Assembly (NCBI GenBank): GCA_009664345.1
Contig: CP043547.1
Span: forward strand, 806,001-870,000
Direction: 5' to 3'
Length of the DNA stretch: 64,000 nt
Source of the DNA: Planctomycetales bacterium 10988
Lineage (GTDB): Bacteria > Planctomycetota > Planctomycetia > Pirellulales > Pb10988
Within the stretch, counting starts at the first letter, position 1. Each line of letters opens with the position of its first letter. Below, piece after piece: positions 16,692 to 22,503 of this stretch. A program made the translations under genes and the position numbers. The notes under the pieces are model-generated. The model ran no database searches, was not told where the DNA came from, and saw only the letters and a list, made by a program, of their open reading frames with translations.

Positions 16692-16727
16692 GCCCCTGGT
16701 TTGAGTCATCGCGCCGGGGGCTTTTTT
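16692..16727 (+). terminator. intrinsic terminator of the EF-Tu paralog
   Basis: GCCCCTGG (16692-16699) pairs with CCGGGGGC (16714-16721), one G-U pair, followed by six T (16722-16727). It starts 12 bases after the stop codon. Confidence 0.9.
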
Positions 16728-17466
16728 AAACTTCAATCGAATCCCAATCGAGGTGAACAATCCAAGCATCTGAAATTCTTTGATCGATCGTGTGCCGCAC
16801 AAGATTAAACCACCGCTGGGCATGATCAAGAATGAGACTATCGGAAGAGATGACAATTTCGTCGGATGCCATTAACTCTTGATCCGGGTCCGGAACGAGC
16901 GTTGTTTCCCAATTCCAACGGCGTCCTTCAGCGATGCCTTGCAGAATTGTCTTCAACCGTCCGCTATTGGAGACCGGCGAATCAAGAAGCCAATGACATT
17001 GGGAGACTCCGCCGGCGGCCAACATTTCTCCTAACAGATGGAGCGCCGGAATGGTTTCCGAGACCTTTCGATAGCTACCATGCATGCTCGCCATATCTCG
17101 ATAGCAACCATCGCGGGCATGAAGAATCACTCCTCTGGAAAGCGCGGCTTCGATGCTGGTCAGGACGTTATAGCCATCGATCCACACCTCACATCCAGCA
17201 AGCTCGCTCAATGTTAGTTGATGTTGATTTCTTCTCTCAGCGGCAGCATCAGTGCAAGTGCATCGCGCAACCGCCGTCCGTTGTCTTGCCAAGAGTTCAT
17301 ATCGATCCCCGACAAGTTTCAATGCAGAGGTCGAAGCGTAACCTCGATTGAACAGCCAAGCCAAATCCTTCACCGCCTCTTGAAGCTGAGGTACTTGGTC
17401 CTCGGCAAAGAGTTTTTGATCCTCAGGGTGAGGGCCGCGATGTTTCCTAGAATCAGACATAGCCAA
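16726..17466 (-). CDS. DUF434 domain protein
   Basis: A 246-residue cytoplasmic protein. The N-terminal part (about 8-70) is DUF434, recognised from RGPHPED, WLFNRGYASTSALKLVGDRY and the basic RQR stretch. The second part (from about 90, VWIDGYNVLTSIEAALSRG) resembles a PIN-like or NYN-type nucleotide-binding fold and corresponds to the DUF5616 family. A PIN-like core suggests RNA handling, but that is inference. A second ATG two codons in may be the true start. Its 3' end overlaps the terminator region of the converging EF-Tu paralog. Confidence 0.8.
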   Translation of the reverse strand: MAMSDSRKHRGPHPEDQKLFAEDQVPQLQEAVKDLAWLFNRGYASTSALKLVGDRYELLARQRTAVARCTCTDAAAERRNQHQLTLSELAGCEVWIDGYNVLTSIEAALSRGVILHARDGCYRDMASMHGSYRKVSETIPALHLLGEMLAAGGVSQCHWLLDSPVSNSGRLKTILQGIAEGRRWNWETTLVPDPDQELMASDEIVISSDSLILDHAQRWFNLVRHTIDQRISDAWIVHLDWDSIEV

Positions 17467-17737
17467 ATGGGAAAAGTGAAACAGAAAAGAATATCATAAC
17501 CGTTGAAACTTCGGCAGTTCAAACAGATTTAGAGGTGAGTCTTTAATTCCCCAACGAACGGACATCTCTCTCGACGCTTCGGTTCACTCTGACTCAGTCA
17601 AACTCTTTAGAACACAGAACATCTAGTTTGTAGAGTGACGAACTCGCACATGTCTAGAAACGCTTCACATCTAAGCAGGGGTTGCCTTATCGGAAAGCAT
17701 GGAAGACTGGGAAAGATGGTCACTTTGAATTCACTTT
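17467..17737. other. intergenic region before the redox cluster
   Basis: This stretch is presumed to hold the promoters of the leftward DUF434 gene and the rightward redox cluster. I looked for an FNR/NNR-type dyad (TTGAT-N4-ATCAA) and a Fur box and saw neither. Confidence 0.5.
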
Positions 17738-17887
17738 GTGCAATCTGAATCCATAACAGGAGAAATTAGTAGATCAGGTAGGATTGGGCGCGTCGTTTGC
17801 CTAGGAGTCCTCTTGGTGTCGATCGTTGGTAGCATGACGACGACCTTGGGCAGAGAGAAAACTCGTGTAGAACATCCATCTACCTAA
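17738..17887 (+). CDS. possible 49-residue membrane peptide abutting the FAD oxidoreductase
   Basis: A GTG-started frame of 49 codons whose TAA stop (17885-17887) is immediately followed by the ATG of the 662-residue oxidoreductase. A hydrophobic helix is present (VVCLGVLLVSIVGSM) with basic residues before and after it. No good ribosome site precedes the GTG; an AGGAG at about 17758 lies inside the frame. The direct stop/start contact suggests translational coupling and the helix suggests a small membrane subunit or leader. The large gene has no obvious ribosome site of its own, which favours coupling. It could equally be chance. Confidence 0.3.
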   Translation: MQSESITGEISRSGRIGRVVCLGVLLVSIVGSMTTTLGREKTRVEHPST

Positions 17888-19876
17888 ATGATATCTTCCT
17901 CAACGCAACCGTTGCGCATGGTAGTCGTGGGCAATGGAATGGCAAGCTACGCCTTTTGTGCGCAGCTAGCGAAACATCCTGATTTAGGCCGATGGCAGGT
18001 CACCGTCTGTGGGGGTGAGCCGCGCGTCGCCTATGACCGAGTTCGCCTCTCGGATACCTTCACGGGGAAAACTCCTCAAGACTTGGAGCTTGCCTCCGAA
18101 GCCTGGTATGCCGACCACCACATCAAATTGCGTACTGGCACTCCCATTATTCACATCGATCGAGAGAAGCAAATCGTTCTTACTGCTTCTGCAGAAGAAA
18201 TTCCTTACGACCAACTGATTCTGGCAACAGGTTCCAATCCCTGGGTGCCCCCGATCGAGGGTGTCGATCTTCCAGGGGTTTTTGTCTACCGCACAATGGA
18301 AGATGTCGAGGCCATTCGCGCGAAGGGTGAGTCTTCACAATCAGCCATTGTCCTCGGAGGAGGTTTGCTCGGTCTGGAAGCCGCCCGTGCGTTGCAAGGA
18401 CTGGGGGTGGAAACGCATGTTCTGGAACGAGCCTCTCGCTTAATGGCACGGCAACTCGATGAACTTGCTGCTGAGGTTCTTTTGAAGGAAATCGAAAAGC
18501 TCGGTATTCATGTCCACCTCGGAGTTTCGACGGAAGCCATTCGAACCTGCGATCAAAAATTACAGATTGCTCTGGAAGGCGAAGAGTCCTTGCTTGCGGA
18601 CATGGTGGTGATTTCCGCCGGGGTTCGTCCGAACGATCAGCTTGCCAAAGAGGCGGGATTAGAAATCGGCCCCCGAGGGGGGATTGCCGTAGATGATCTG
18701 CTAAGAACCTCGGACCCACGAATCTGGGGGCTAGGGGAATGTGTTTGGCATCGCGAAACGCTCTATGGTCTTGTTGGCCCTTGCTACCGCATGGCGGAAG
18801 TGTTGGCTGCAAATCTGTTGGCCATGGGCACGGGTACCCGCTTTTCCGAAGCTTTTCAAGGAGCAAGTCGGGCCACCACATTGAAGCTGATGGGGATCGA
18901 TGTTGCGACCTTGGGGATTCCGATGGAAGTTTCTCAAGGGGGTGGGCGATACGTTTATCAAGAGCCTGGCATCTGTCGCACGATCATCACGGAGCATGAT
19001 TGCGTTGTCTCCGCGGTTGGAGTCGGGCCGTGGCCGGAACGTGATCGGCTGAGTCTCGCCATCGAAACGGGTCAGGTTTTCGTCCCGAATCAATTTCAAC
19101 ATTTCGAACAAGAGGGACTTCTTTGGCAACCGGGAACCGCCGTGCCTGTTGCGGAGTGGCCGGATGAGGCAACGATCTGCAGTTGCGTCGGGGTCTCGCT
19201 TTGCCGGATTCGTGAGCAAGTTCTCAACGGGGCCAACCTTGAAAAAGTCTCTCAAACGACGGGTGCAGGAACGGTCTGTGGTTCGTGTCGACCTTTACTT
19301 GCCGAGCTAACGGGGGAAGGAACGGGGGGATTTAAGATACCCGGACGGAAGACACTTTTAGTCGTCTCCGTTTTATCCTTTGCCCTGCTAATCGCCGCAG
19401 TCGTTGTCGGTCCGTGGCCGATGTCTCAATCGATCCTAGATCATCGCTTCACCTTTGAGGCCCTTTGGCGTGATCCTTTGCTTCGCAAAATCACCGGAGG
19501 CACCGTCGTGGGGCTTGCCGTGATAGGGTTGGCGCTCAGCTTACGAAAACGTTGGGGATGGTTGCAATTTGGTACTCATGGATTCTGGCGAGGGGTGCAT
19601 GGTTTCTTCGGTTTGGCAACCCTCATCGGCTTTTACTTTCATACCGGACTGAGCCTCGGCCACAATCTGACGCTGATTCTTGGGGTGATTTTCCTGGCGT
19701 TAAATCTTGTTGGCGCTGCCACCGGAGCGGTCGCTGCGATGGAACCGGTCTCGACAGGCAGAGCGGGATTAACCCTTCGTCAGTGGCGGCCGATTCTCAC
19801 TTGGCTACACATTGGCTTATTTGTACCCCTTCCGTTGTTGGTTCTCTTCCATGCGATTTCCGTTTTTTATTACTAG
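17888..19876 (+). CDS. NirB-like FAD/[2Fe-2S] oxidoreductase fused to a dihaem-b membrane domain
   Basis: A 662-residue protein. The N-terminal FAD- and NAD(P)-binding domains (about 8-400) resemble the first half of NirB-type nitrite reductases: VGNGMAS (14-20) for FAD and LGGGLLGLE near 160 for the pyridine nucleotide. A BFD-like [2Fe-2S] domain follows with Cys 431, 433, 464 and 467 (CSC...CGSC). Five TM helices come next (from about 490). Two of them carry His pairs 14 residues apart (His 571/585, His 641/655), the usual spacing for two b haems across a membrane. There is no sirohaem domain, so it is not itself a nitrite reductase. Six bases separate it from the multihaem cytochrome gene. 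Inferred role: electron exchange between NAD(P)H, or a quinone pool, and periplasmic cytochromes. Confidence 0.85.
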   Translation: MISSSTQPLRMVVVGNGMASYAFCAQLAKHPDLGRWQVTVCGGEPRVAYDRVRLSDTFTGKTPQDLELASEAWYADHHIKLRTGTPIIHIDREKQIVLTASAEEIPYDQLILATGSNPWVPPIEGVDLPGVFVYRTMEDVEAIRAKGESSQSAIVLGGGLLGLEAARALQGLGVETHVLERASRLMARQLDELAAEVLLKEIEKLGIHVHLGVSTEAIRTCDQKLQIALEGEESLLADMVVISAGVRPNDQLAKEAGLEIGPRGGIAVDDLLRTSDPRIWGLGECVWHRETLYGLVGPCYRMAEVLAANLLAMGTGTRFSEAFQGASRATTLKLMGIDVATLGIPMEVSQGGGRYVYQEPGICRTIITEHDCVVSAVGVGPWPERDRLSLAIETGQVFVPNQFQHFEQEGLLWQPGTAVPVAEWPDEATICSCVGVSLCRIREQVLNGANLEKVSQTTGAGTVCGSCRPLLAELTGEGTGGFKIPGRKTLLVVSVLSFALLIAAVVVGPWPMSQSILDHRFTFEALWRDPLLRKITGGTVVGLAVIGLALSLRKRWGWLQFGTHGFWRGVHGFFGLATLIGFYFHTGLSLGHNLTLILGVIFLALNLVGAATGAVAAMEPVSTGRAGLTLRQWRPILTWLHIGLFVPLPLLVLFHAISVFYY

Positions 19877-19882
19877 GATGCT

Positions 19883-21244
19883 ATGTCTCGTCGCCTGATC
19901 CTGATCACCATTCTTGCAGTGCAACTAGTGCTGGGCCTTGTCTTGGTCCATGGCCTGACTGTCGATCGCTCTCCGGTAAGTCGTCTTTTTTTGCCGGGCG
20001 AGACGACGCATGGTCACTACCAGATTGAACTTTCGTGCCGTGCTTGTCATACACCGACGATGGGGGTCAAGCAGGAAGCTTGCACGGATTGCCACGGTGC
20101 CGAGTTGAAGCAAGCGGACGATACCCATCCGGTTTCCAAGTTTACGAATCCCGCTAATGCTCACCTGATTGAAAAGCTTGATGCTCGCTATTGCACGACC
20201 TGCCATCAGGAGCATGTTCCGCATCGGACCTTTCCAATGGGGCTTTCCCTGCCAGAAGACTACTGCTATCGCTGCCATAGTGATGTTGCCGAGCAACGAC
20301 CAAGTCATGAAGGATTTACTTTCAAGTCATGTAGCACTTCCGGCTGTCACAACTTCCATGACAACACATCGCTCTATGAAAACTTTCTCAACAAGAATGC
20401 CGATCAACCGGCGGTGCTTTCCGATCCACATTATGCCGTGTTGAACTTTTATCAAAGTGAAAAGCAACTCGTTGGGAAACCGTTGAAATCGGAAGATAGC
20501 GATGCCCCGAGCGATGCTGAATTTACTAAGAAGGTCCATCAAGAATGGGCCGAGTCGTCGCATGCCGCGGCAGGGGTGAACTGCTCTCACTGCCATGTTG
20601 GGGTGGAGGGTACCGCGTGGGAAGGCGAATGGTCGGACCAAGTGGACTATCTGAACTGTGAAGAGTGCCATGCTTTCGAAACAAGTGGTTTTCTCGGGGG
20701 AAAGCATGGAATGCGACTTGCAGCGGGGCTTTCGCCGATGACGCCGGGAATGGCTCGCTTGCCGATGAAAGAGAGCGCCCGGCATGCCGAACTTAGTTGC
20801 AAGTCATGCCACAGCGATCACACCTTCGACACCCAATTTGCCGCCGTCAACGCTTGCTTGAAATGTCACGACGACCAGCACAGCCTCGACTATAGAAACT
20901 CTTCTCACTACGAACTTTGGCAAAGTGAAGTGAACGGCGAGGCTCCGCCCGGTTCCGGGGTATCTTGTGCGACCTGCCATCTGCCGCGTATCGAACATGG
21001 TGGCGATACGCGAGTCGAGCACAATCAAAATGCGACCCTTCGCCCCAATGAAAAGATGATTCGTTCCACTTGTATGCAATGTCATGGGCTGCAATTTTCG
21101 CTCGACGCCCTGGCAGATGAAGCTTTGATTCAAAACAACTTTCAGGGTGAACCGACCGTTGATATCGAAAGCGCGAGAATGGCCGTTGAATGGTTCGATC
21201 GTCGGAATGCGAAGAGAGAGCAACGACGAAAGCAATCCGATTAG
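19883..21244 (+). CDS. membrane-anchored multihaem cytochrome c (11 predicted haems)
   Basis: A 453-residue protein with an N-terminal signal anchor (about 5-25) and a periplasmic domain. Ten CxxCH motifs lie at Cys 52, 67, 104, 128, 234, 259, 306, 325, 362 and 397. One unusual CX4CH site is at 150-156 (CSTSGCH). Additional histidines such as His 111, 114, 227, 275, 301, 342 and 380 could be distal ligands. The C-terminal block with CATCHLPR, EHNQN and CMQCHG resembles the NapC/NrfH and octahaem-cytochrome superfamily, but I cannot name a subfamily. It is in one unit with the FAD/haem-b fusion and is its likely redox partner in the periplasm. Confidence 0.88.
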   Translation: MSRRLILITILAVQLVLGLVLVHGLTVDRSPVSRLFLPGETTHGHYQIELSCRACHTPTMGVKQEACTDCHGAELKQADDTHPVSKFTNPANAHLIEKLDARYCTTCHQEHVPHRTFPMGLSLPEDYCYRCHSDVAEQRPSHEGFTFKSCSTSGCHNFHDNTSLYENFLNKNADQPAVLSDPHYAVLNFYQSEKQLVGKPLKSEDSDAPSDAEFTKKVHQEWAESSHAAAGVNCSHCHVGVEGTAWEGEWSDQVDYLNCEECHAFETSGFLGGKHGMRLAAGLSPMTPGMARLPMKESARHAELSCKSCHSDHTFDTQFAAVNACLKCHDDQHSLDYRNSSHYELWQSEVNGEAPPGSGVSCATCHLPRIEHGGDTRVEHNQNATLRPNEKMIRSTCMQCHGLQFSLDALADEALIQNNFQGEPTVDIESARMAVEWFDRRNAKREQRRKQSD

Positions 21245-21298
21245 TACTTTTTACATTCTAAGTATTCGTTTTTATCTTATTCAATAGGGAGACCTCTT

Positions 21299-21898
21299 AT
21301 GAGAAATGGTGTTACCGGCTTGTTCCTAGGATTAGCTTGCGTGGGCGTTGTCGCTTGGATTTCCGGCTGTGGCGGTCCATCGGAAGCTGCCACGGGTGGG
21401 ATTTCTCCGCAGAAGTTCGCCGATGCCGTGCATGCGGTGATGATGGCGGACCGTACTGTCTACGCTACGCATATTGTTACGCGTTTGAAAGAGCAGGAGG
21501 CGGATGTCTATCCCAGTGAATATTGGGAAGATGAGCCTCATACCCTTCCACTTCCCGCTCAAATGTTCCGCATGGGGGCTGAGATGGTCAGTGCCAATCC
21601 CGAAGCTGGCTTCACCTACGCGCTTAAATCGAAGTGGCCCCTCAATGCCCAGAATAAGCCGGCAACCGAACTTGAAACGACCGGGCTAACGTTTCTTGCC
21701 GAGAATCCAGGTGAGAATTATTACGCGGAAGAGGAACTTGCGGGCAAAAAATATTATACTGCTTTCTATCCCGACACAGCGGTCGCCAAGGCATGTTGGG
21801 ATTGTCACAACAACCACGAAAACCGCGGCGATGATTACCCTGAATTCGAAGAAGGGGATGTCATGGGTGGAGTCATCGTCCGCATTCCGCTTGAATAA
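21299..21898 (+). CDS. DUF3365 (Tll0287-like) monohaem cytochrome c lipoprotein
   Basis: A 199-residue lipoprotein. The signal ends in the lipobox ISGC with Cys 24 as lipidation site. The mature part is a DUF3365 / Tll0287-like domain with one haem motif, CWDCH (166-170), close to the C terminus, followed by the typical GDVMGGVIVRIPL strand. A clear GGGAG ribosome site lies eight bases before the ATG. These domains are PAS-like haem c sensors or electron carriers. The protein sits 54 bases after the multihaem cytochrome and probably belongs to the same transcript. Confidence 0.88.
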   Translation: MRNGVTGLFLGLACVGVVAWISGCGGPSEAATGGISPQKFADAVHAVMMADRTVYATHIVTRLKEQEADVYPSEYWEDEPHTLPLPAQMFRMGAEMVSANPEAGFTYALKSKWPLNAQNKPATELETTGLTFLAENPGENYYAEEELAGKKYYTAFYPDTAVAKACWDCHNNHENRGDDYPEFEEGDVMGGVIVRIPLE

Positions 21899-21991
21899 AC
21901 AAATTTCGTTTCAGAACAAAATTGTCCCCGATCGACCTCGTCACTTCGTTCGTTATTCACTCTCCAGTTCGATCCTTTAAAAGGAAGCCAG

Positions 21992-22399
21992 ATGACCCCA
22001 GAAGAAATCACCCTTGTGAAAGCGTCTTGGGAGGAAGTCAAGCCAATCTCTGAGAAGGCCGCTGAGTTATTCTACGGAAGGCTTTTCGAAACCGACCCCA
22101 CAACCATTCCCCTCTTTGCCAATGCGAATATGAAAGAGCAAGGCAAAAAGCTGATGACAACGATCACCTTGTGTGTGACGAGTCTTGACCGTCTTCCACA
22201 GATCCTCCCCACCGTCCAAGCACTCGGTAAAAAACACAATGTTGAATATCAAGTGAAACCAGAGCATTACGATTCTGTCGGAGCGGCTTTGCTTTGGACT
22301 TTGGAACAAGGGCTGGGAGATAAATGGACACCAGAGACCCAAGCGGCTTGGACGAAGACTTATGTGACCCTGGCTGACGCAATGAAGGCTTCGACCTAA
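21992..22399 (+). CDS. single-domain globin (HGbI / flavohaemoglobin-type)
   Basis: A 135-residue globin. The residues can be aligned to the fold: B10 Tyr 28 (LFYGRLF), CD1 Phe 42 (PLF), E7 Gln 50 (MKEQ) and proximal F8 His 82 (GKKHNVEY). The TyrB10/GlnE7 pair is that of Hell's Gate globin I and flavohaemoglobins, which bind O2 tightly and turn over NO. There is no FAD/NAD reductase domain, so an external reductase is required, and the upstream oxidoreductase is a candidate (inference). It has a strong AAGGAAG ribosome site and ends at an intrinsic terminator, making it the last gene of the cluster. Confidence 0.92.
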   Translation: MTPEEITLVKASWEEVKPISEKAAELFYGRLFETDPTTIPLFANANMKEQGKKLMTTITLCVTSLDRLPQILPTVQALGKKHNVEYQVKPEHYDSVGAALLWTLEQGLGDKWTPETQAAWTKTYVTLADAMKAST

Positions 22400-22426
22400 C
22401 CAATTCTTGAAGCAAAAACCAAAAGA

Positions 22427-22467
22427 AAAGTCCCTCAAGATTCTCGCTGAACTTGACGGGACTTTTT
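22427..22467 (+). terminator. intrinsic terminator after the globin
   Basis: AAAGTCCCTCAAG (22427-22439) pairs with CTTGACGGGACTTT (22452-22465), one bulge, and runs into a T tract. It closes the redox cluster and faces the leftward sulfatase that ends at 22504. Confidence 0.85.
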
Positions 22468-22503
22468 TATGACTTTGAAATAACTAAATCCTAAAAGTAC
22501 TTT

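Follow-up and report, generated by a model that had tools for sequence, protein, structure and literature searches.

Four consecutive genes on the plus strand of a planctomycete genome raise the question of where a cell would send the electrons of a flavin reductase that is fused to a membrane domain. The genes lie in a 64,000-nucleotide stretch of Planctomycetales bacterium 10988 (contig CP043547.1, positions 806,001 to 870,000; hereafter the window). Gene A (17888-19876; 662 amino acids, aa) encodes a fused NADH/FAD, BFD-type [2Fe-2S] and putative di-haem-b membrane protein, and is followed by gene B (19883-21244; 453 aa), a c-type cytochrome with 11 haem motifs and an N-terminal membrane anchor; gene C (21299-21898; 199 aa), a Tll0287-like (DUF3365, sCache_heme) mono-haem lipoprotein; and gene D (21992-22399; 135 aa), a single-domain globin. 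The intergenic gaps measure 6 base pairs (A-B), 54 (B-C) and 93 (C-D). An earlier reading of this stretch, made from the sequence only, had described four open reading frames (ORFs) on one strand, in agreement with the ORF list. The reading favored here, to which we give about an even chance, is that A, B and C form an inner-membrane module that exports electrons from NADH to the periplasm in the service of nitrate assimilation, with an optional globin that detoxifies nitric oxide (NO).

Linkage and distribution of the gene set

Within the class, the membrane part of gene A matched 15 of 297 genomes, among them G150, a distant case in which the parts are separate genes. A profile of gene B, applied at E ≤ 1e-40, matched exactly the same 14 of the 297 genomes as the strong matches to the gene A membrane part. 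A pattern-based scan of a named-species collection of 84,980 genomes then yielded 270 relatives of gene B, the best 80 of which were fetched; these came from Pirellulaceae, Verrucomicrobia, Lentisphaera, alpha-, beta- and gammaproteobacteria, Polyangium, Binatia, Dadabacteria and Rhodothermales. Together, 13 loci from the class (chosen by the gene A membrane match) and these 80 named loci (chosen by the gene B match) make up the 93 loci compared below, of which at least four pairs represent the same locus, leaving 89 distinct. In viral contigs, six patterns, all derived from the window's gene A alone, detected no relatives of gene A.

The linkage counts are conditional on the loci having been chosen through gene A or gene B. 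The membrane part of gene A lies upstream of gene B on the same strand in all 93 loci, and gene C is on that strand in 91 of them (87 of the 89 distinct loci); the two loci lacking gene C, L105 (7.3 kb) and L108 (6.9 kb), are contigs with gene B close to one end. Gene D, no more than 4.5 kb from gene B and in the same orientation, was found in 58 of the 93 loci (55 of 89 distinct). In the subset of 62 loci that span 20 kb or more, gene C is present in 62 and gene D in 42. Pairwise distances are correlated between the FAD part of gene A and gene B (r 0.73), between the transmembrane part of gene A and gene B (0.67), and between the two parts of gene A (0.71), in a comparison that had no unlinked protein as a control.

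These counts change the picture drawn from the sequence only, in which the four genes appeared as a fixed unit: a three-gene core, A-B-C, is accompanied by an optional globin. Two of the ways in which that reading might have failed can be set aside. The fusion in gene A recurs across loci, ruling out a sequencing join, and the cytochrome adjoins it at every locus fetched. The third, homologs without a globin neighbor, applies in part, to 35 of the 93 loci, while 58 keep the globin. The search that it had proposed for the fusion among other planctomycetes found the cytochrome retained beside it; the fusion is not confined to that group, as other phyla also carry A-B.

In G150, an A-type membrane domain stands as a gene of its own (276 aa; L040:6749-11501), between a cNMP-binding/4Fe-4S ferredoxin fusion (586 aa) and a cytochrome with ten CXXCH motifs; this set is possibly a related conduit with a different electron input.

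Gene A: flavin, iron-sulfur and membrane domains

The Pyr_redox_2 FAD/NAD(H) domain of gene A (residues 10-287; 17915-18748; Pfam 5e-61) precedes a BFD-like [2Fe-2S] domain (residues 429-474; 19172-19309; Fer2_BFD 4e-8) with Cys 431, 433, 464 and 467, giving the combination of Pyr_redox_2 and a four-Cys BFD domain that defines NasC/Flp-type donors. The NirB model TIGR02374 aligns with gene A over model positions 1-465 of 794, at 411.8 bits, below its cut-off of 578. A NirB-like FAD/BFD fusion without the sirohaem part, as originally proposed, is therefore what the alignment describes, and the flavin part is a common NirB/NasC/Flp-type reductase. In the structure model (mean predicted local distance difference test score, pLDDT, 92.5), it adopts a ferredoxin-reductase-like fold, with a VIA match to 3fg2 at Z 38.1 (392 residues, 2.4 A, model residues 8-419); the VIA rows for gene A spanned residues 7-419.

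The remainder of the protein is a membrane part (residues 487-661; 19346-19870) with five predicted helices according to hydropathy and the model, in which five long helices follow residue 486. Ligand conservation was counted in sequences extracted by hit position, free of motif requirements, from the 93 loci plus the window (94 in all). Two earlier large alignments (A3 and A4) had relied on motif patterns (CxC, CG[ST]C and H-x13-H for gene A; a GCH-type motif plus eight CXXCH for gene B) and were thinned to 86/93 gene B and 70/79 gene A sequences, so that their conservation counts are partly built in. In the motif-free set, His571, His585 and His641 of the membrane part are kept in 94 of 94 sequences and His655 in 93. 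Among the 91 frames longer than 500 aa, Cys433, Cys464 and Cys467 are kept in all and Cys431 in 89, the exceptions being L038 and L072. An RKR triplet (residues 553-555), kept in 86, 91 and 92 of the 94, marks a predicted cytoplasmic helix end.

The four membrane His form two pairs (571/585 and 641/655), each with its members 14 residues apart on one predicted helix. Such a spacing is usual for two b haems bound across a membrane. On the strength of this spacing, the four residues are as expected for two putative transmembrane b haems; the arrangement of two His pairs on two helices, taken from the model and from conservation, is that of a di-haem b protein with predicted haem binding. In a relative from locus L027, the membrane domain scored 21.1 bits with Ni_hydr_CYTB (cut-off 30.1), and is thus not placed in the cytochrome b561/DUF4405 family by score.

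Gene B: a multihaem cytochrome with an HAO-like scaffold

Ten CXXCH motifs and one CX4CH motif follow the hydrophobic N-terminal anchor of gene B, in line with the 11-haem cytochrome that had been predicted to follow gene A. The first five motifs (20036-20350), the fifth of which is the CX4CH, are cytochrome c3/c7-like, and the protein matches Cytochrom_c3_2 in Pfam (2e-16). It falls into neither of two decahaem families that were compared, scoring 41.7 bits with the DmsE model (cut-off 192) and 25.0 with GSU2203 (cut-off 325). All 11 haem-motif His and 11 further His are invariant in 94 of 94 sequences.

The other six haems lie in residues 212-410 (20516-21112), which, judged by profile and fold, belong to the hydroxylamine oxidoreductase (HAO) superfamily. 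The best Foldseek match of gene B is HAO (E 6.7e-5), and its profile matches among solved structures are octahaem nitrite reductases and NrfA. VIA-align placed residues 204-423 on HAO (4n4j) with a middling score (Z 7.4, 191 residues, 3.8 A), and hhalign matched residues 212-410 to an HAO-family profile with a probability of 99.2 (E 2.8e-19). This profile comprised nine HAO-family proteins picked by PF13447 in the phylum. In the alignment, haems 6-11 of gene B pair with HAO haems h2, h3, h5, h6, h7 and h8. The fourth HAO motif (h4) has no counterpart between residues 263 and 306 of gene B in this alignment with the nine proteins, and h4 is what we take to be the catalytic haem (P460). No CXXCK motif, the mark of the catalytic haem in NrfA and octahaem nitrite reductases, occurs in gene B, the motif ligands being His in 94 of 94 sequences, and no invariant Tyr was found across 87 gene B sequences. 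Because the counterpart of the HAO catalytic haem is missing, gene B looks like a wire rather than an enzyme.

Two further propositions were revised. The 11 additional invariant His had been considered proof that all haems are bis-His coordinated; they are now regarded as suggestive, since the position of one of them, His333, is occupied by an invariant His in the nine HAO proteins as well. The nine-protein HAO comparison also replaced an alignment (7.8 bits) in which haem 9 had been matched to the CXXCK haem of octahaem nitrite reductase.

Genes C and D

Gene C carries PF11845 (66.4 bits against a cut-off of 24.1; 5e-18) and a single CXXCH motif at residues 166-170, the features of an sCache_heme protein, which bear out its earlier designation as a Tll0287-like haem protein. 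By eye, a lipobox can be read as ISG-C24. Sequence searches of the PDB returned no matches. Of 92 gene C sequences extracted, 10 without the motif were left out; none of the remaining 82 has a domain Cys beyond the haem motif. A study of Tll0287 and a Pseudomonas putida protein describes a Cys axial ligand with Cys/His ligation (PMC12889525); with no domain Cys outside the motif, gene C therefore lacks this ligand, in which it differs from these proteins. Elsewhere in the window's genome (G000:C1:4358818-4359087), a second Tll0287-like domain lies inside a 584-aa open frame, possibly a sensor protein.

The identification of gene D as a globin stands on Pfam evidence (Globin, 2e-19). Its Tyr28, Gln50, Leu54 and His82 are invariant in 59 sequences, a pattern that fits a B10-Tyr/E7-Gln oxygen-binding pocket.

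Downstream of gene D, an intrinsic terminator at 22424-22468 (plus strand) closes the gene set, as had been suggested. The RNA at 22415-22470 folds with a minimum free energy of -22.3 kcal/mol (z -6.15 against 200 shuffles) into a stem-loop with a T run, and a simple terminator scan of the plus strand called none at this stem-loop. On the other side of the set, Rfam gave no matches in 17400-17950, and the minus strand upstream of gene A (16726-17466) carries a gene that joins DUF434 and DUF5616.

Nitrate genes in the neighborhood

Neighboring families other than A-D were named when present in at least 6 of the 89 distinct loci; clusters in five loci or fewer were left unnamed, and an opposite-strand cluster (24 loci) was omitted as presumed frames opposite real genes. 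The families recurring at this level are mostly nitrate-assimilation genes. They comprise an ABC ATPase (22 of 89 loci), whose representative is of the nitrate type by NCBIfam; an Alginate_exp porin (20); an NMT1_2 substrate-binding protein of the NrtA/NasS kind (17); an NtrB-like permease (14), whose best match, ntrB, is below cut-off; a monohaem cytochrome c (11); a NasA-like molybdoenzyme (8), all below cut-off; GAF proteins (7); and sulfite-reductase-type flavoproteins and ANTAR regulators of the NasT kind (6 each). Fe-S/DmsC proteins occur in 5 of the 89 loci and NirA in 3. NCBIfam cut-offs are exceeded by the scanned examples of NirA, NirB, the flavoprotein and the nitrate ABC ATPase.

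A nitrate-assimilation gene is present in 26 of the 62 loci that span 20 kb or more, and in none of 20 control stretches, each 20 kb long and placed at round coordinates in six module-bearing genomes of the class. At the level of whole genomes, strong matches to NirA (6) or NirB (8) occur in all 14 module genomes of the class versus 110 of 283 others (p 3e-6, uncorrected for kinship), the score limits having been chosen after the lists were seen; counting all NirA/NirB matches at 1e-60 instead gives 162 of 283 for the other genomes (p 0.001, likewise uncorrected). In the named genomes, NirA or NirB is present in 18 of 22. That A-B-C itself acts as an assimilatory nitrite reductase in place of NirA/NirB is ruled out by the presence of one or the other in 14 of 14 module genomes of the class.

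Loci bearing the porin include L027, L034, L039, L048, L049, L057, L064, L098 and L122, and Alginate_exp was identified in five scanned examples; this porin may be a nitrate channel. In L029, L032, L033 and L035, a NasA-like molybdoenzyme has as its companions an ABC ATPase and a protein that joins 4Fe-4S and DmsC-like parts (scanned in L029), which suggests a membrane-linked variant of assimilatory nitrate reductase. The best NCBIfam score of the L029 enzyme is to formate dehydrogenase alpha, below cut-off, and its role in nitrate reduction is inferred.

Proposed electron route and competing explanations

In the proposed scheme, NADH would reduce the FAD of the gene A product, from which electrons would pass to its [2Fe-2S] cluster and on to two b haems, one held by His571/His641 toward the cytoplasmic side and the other by His585/His655 toward the periplasmic side. 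They would continue into B, the eleven-haem wire on an HAO scaffold without the catalytic haem, and from there to the periplasmic lipoprotein C or, in certain genomes, a small monohaem cytochrome c, probably independently of quinones. The direction from NADH to the periplasm is suggested by the NAD domain of A. The module would work alongside nitrate assimilation, most likely by reducing or buffering reactive nitrogen (NO, nitrite) outside the membrane, a role to which the nitrate context, the globin and the Flp-Bjgb precedent discussed below all point. Where present, the cytoplasmic globin would oxidize NO to nitrate and be re-reduced by the FAD/FeS part of A. The route from NAD(P)H through FAD, FeS and haem b to haem c, put forward from the sequence only, gains from the conserved BFD Cys and the four membrane His, while its course, direction and acceptor are still conjectural.

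Several observations weigh against this scheme. The membrane domain of gene A falls below Pfam cut-offs (DUF4405, 17.4 bits against 26.7), a result of score-based comparison without a fold search, and at one locus (L038:11237-13362, a chromosome record of the same locus as L072) gene A is present as two ORFs of 484 and 229 aa with Phe at the Cys431 position, which may reflect either decay or an error. His333 of gene B, by its alignment, is perhaps not a haem ligand. The globin was not found in 35 loci (20 of the 62 of at least 20 kb), and the stand-alone P. putida relative of gene C is described as binding NO only weakly (PMC12889525). Nitrate genes occur in the fetched flanks of just 32 of the 93 loci. 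The nas cluster of the window's genome lies 2.3 Mb away; besides NirA, a flavoprotein and genes for transport, it has a NasA-like gene and its own soluble FAD-BFD protein. Among the 22 named genomes (completeness not stated), three of Polyangium and one of Pleionea have no strong NirA or NirB, so nitrate assimilation is perhaps not obligatory. Finally, the acceptor is a guess, because the core encodes no terminal enzyme.

Some of these points favor a different account, possible though rather unlikely, in which A-B is a general electron valve. NADH would discharge its electrons through it, either by way of the cytochrome c pool and an oxidase or onto metals in the periplasm or outside the cell, and the link to nitrate would reflect redox balancing alone. 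The core in Polyangium and Pleionea fits such a valve, as do the recurring Alginate_exp-type porin and the monohaem CBB3-type cytochrome c that BLAST places close to the core in 18 of the 93 loci (two examples named by Pfam). However, nitrate assimilation is the only recognizable pathway among the families in at least six loci (Mtr-type porin-cytochrome clusters were not searched for), and the globin and C seem better suited to reactive nitrogen. Electrons might also run the other way, from the periplasm via B and the haems of A to the [2Fe-2S] cluster, to feed a cytoplasmic nitrate or nitrite reductase. Such reverse flow would be thermodynamically allowed, and the FAD-BFD part of A belongs to a family that feeds assimilatory reductases; gene A directly follows the NasA-like gene in L029, L032, L033 and L035, and in L027 the two are separated by NirA and a flavoprotein gene. 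Nevertheless, the Fe-S/DmsC-like gene adjoining the NasA-like gene (L029 scanned; L032, L033 and L035 by BLAST) could already supply electrons, the NasA-like gene of the window's genome has a soluble FAD-BFD partner, and the complete NAD-binding domain of A would be left superfluous. We consider this direction improbable.

The kinship of gene B to HAO and octahaem nitrite reductase, in both fold and profile, raises the further idea that B is itself an enzyme of the HAO/ONR/NrfA superfamily, one that uses NADH electrons delivered by A to reduce nitrite, NO or hydroxylamine in the periplasm. The alignment of His333 with the invariant HAO His would suit an enzyme; the missing haem 4 counterpart and the lack of both CXXCK and an invariant Tyr speak against one, as does the retention of NirA or NirB in the module genomes of the class. 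This alternative is the one weakened most, and we think it very improbable. The export module linked to nitrate assimilation thus remains the favored reading. Its boldest form would be a widespread, direct and quinone-independent export of NADH electrons through A into an HAO-derived wire and on to an NO-reactive periplasmic sCache_heme protein of a new class, with NO removed on both faces of the inner membrane (by C outside and the globin inside) in nitrate-assimilating cells; we offer it tentatively, as something that may well prove wrong.

Comparison with known systems and implications

The closest known system is Flp-Bjgb-NasC of Bradyrhizobium. According to the available text of its description, Flp and the globin Bjgb, whose genes accompany that of the nitrate reductase NasC, give protection from nitrosative stress (PMC4724949). 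The likeness lies in a FAD/NAD(P)H reductase of the nas operon paired with a single-domain globin and tied to nitrate assimilation and NasS-NasT (PMC4724949), and a flavoprotein encoded together with a single-domain globin is found in the window and 58 of the 93 loci. A and D are counterparts of Flp and Bjgb by domain content alone rather than by sequence comparison. The same available text compares Flp with cytoplasmic oxidoreductases and gives the operon as narK-bjgb-flp-nasC, naming no multihaem cytochrome (PMC4724949), whereas in A a putative haem-binding membrane domain is joined to the reductase, with B and C as its partners. NirB/NasC-type reductases share the combination of Pyr_redox_2 and Fer2_BFD; A differs in its C-terminal membrane domain and its lack of a sirohaem domain, and is modeled as membrane-fused. 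The NasC/Flp-type donor is soluble and donates to NasA.

NADPH oxidases and ferric reductases also export electrons from a flavin through two b haems across the membrane, held by paired His on two helices. Gene A resembles them only in how it would work, as its domain order is reversed, a [2Fe-2S] cluster lies between, and its partner is a c-type wire. B shares six haems in order, within residues 212-410, with HAO, octahaem nitrite reductase and NrfA, and differs in lacking a haem 4 counterpart and CXXCK, and in having five extra N-terminal haems and a membrane anchor. C has PF11845 and CXXCH in common with the stand-alone Tll0287/sCache_heme proteins. Each single domain is already known, and the parts of A-B-C match generic families only (NirB-like, cytochrome c3 and Tll0287-like). 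For the combination A-B-C, no description was found in the open-licence literature among the matches listed, which agrees with the earlier statement that no named system was known with the A-B-C-D set; prior description elsewhere is possible. One listed match (PMC13322032) concerns a different cluster.

If the favored reading is correct, several phyla, including marine planctomycetes and gammaproteobacteria, would carry a dedicated wire from NADH to the periplasm that is tied to nitrate use. An enzyme scaffold, that of HAO, would have been turned into a pure conductor through loss of its catalytic haem, and a group of stand-alone Tll0287-like proteins would gain a partner and a role. The fate of NO and nitrite during nitrate assimilation would then become a testable question.

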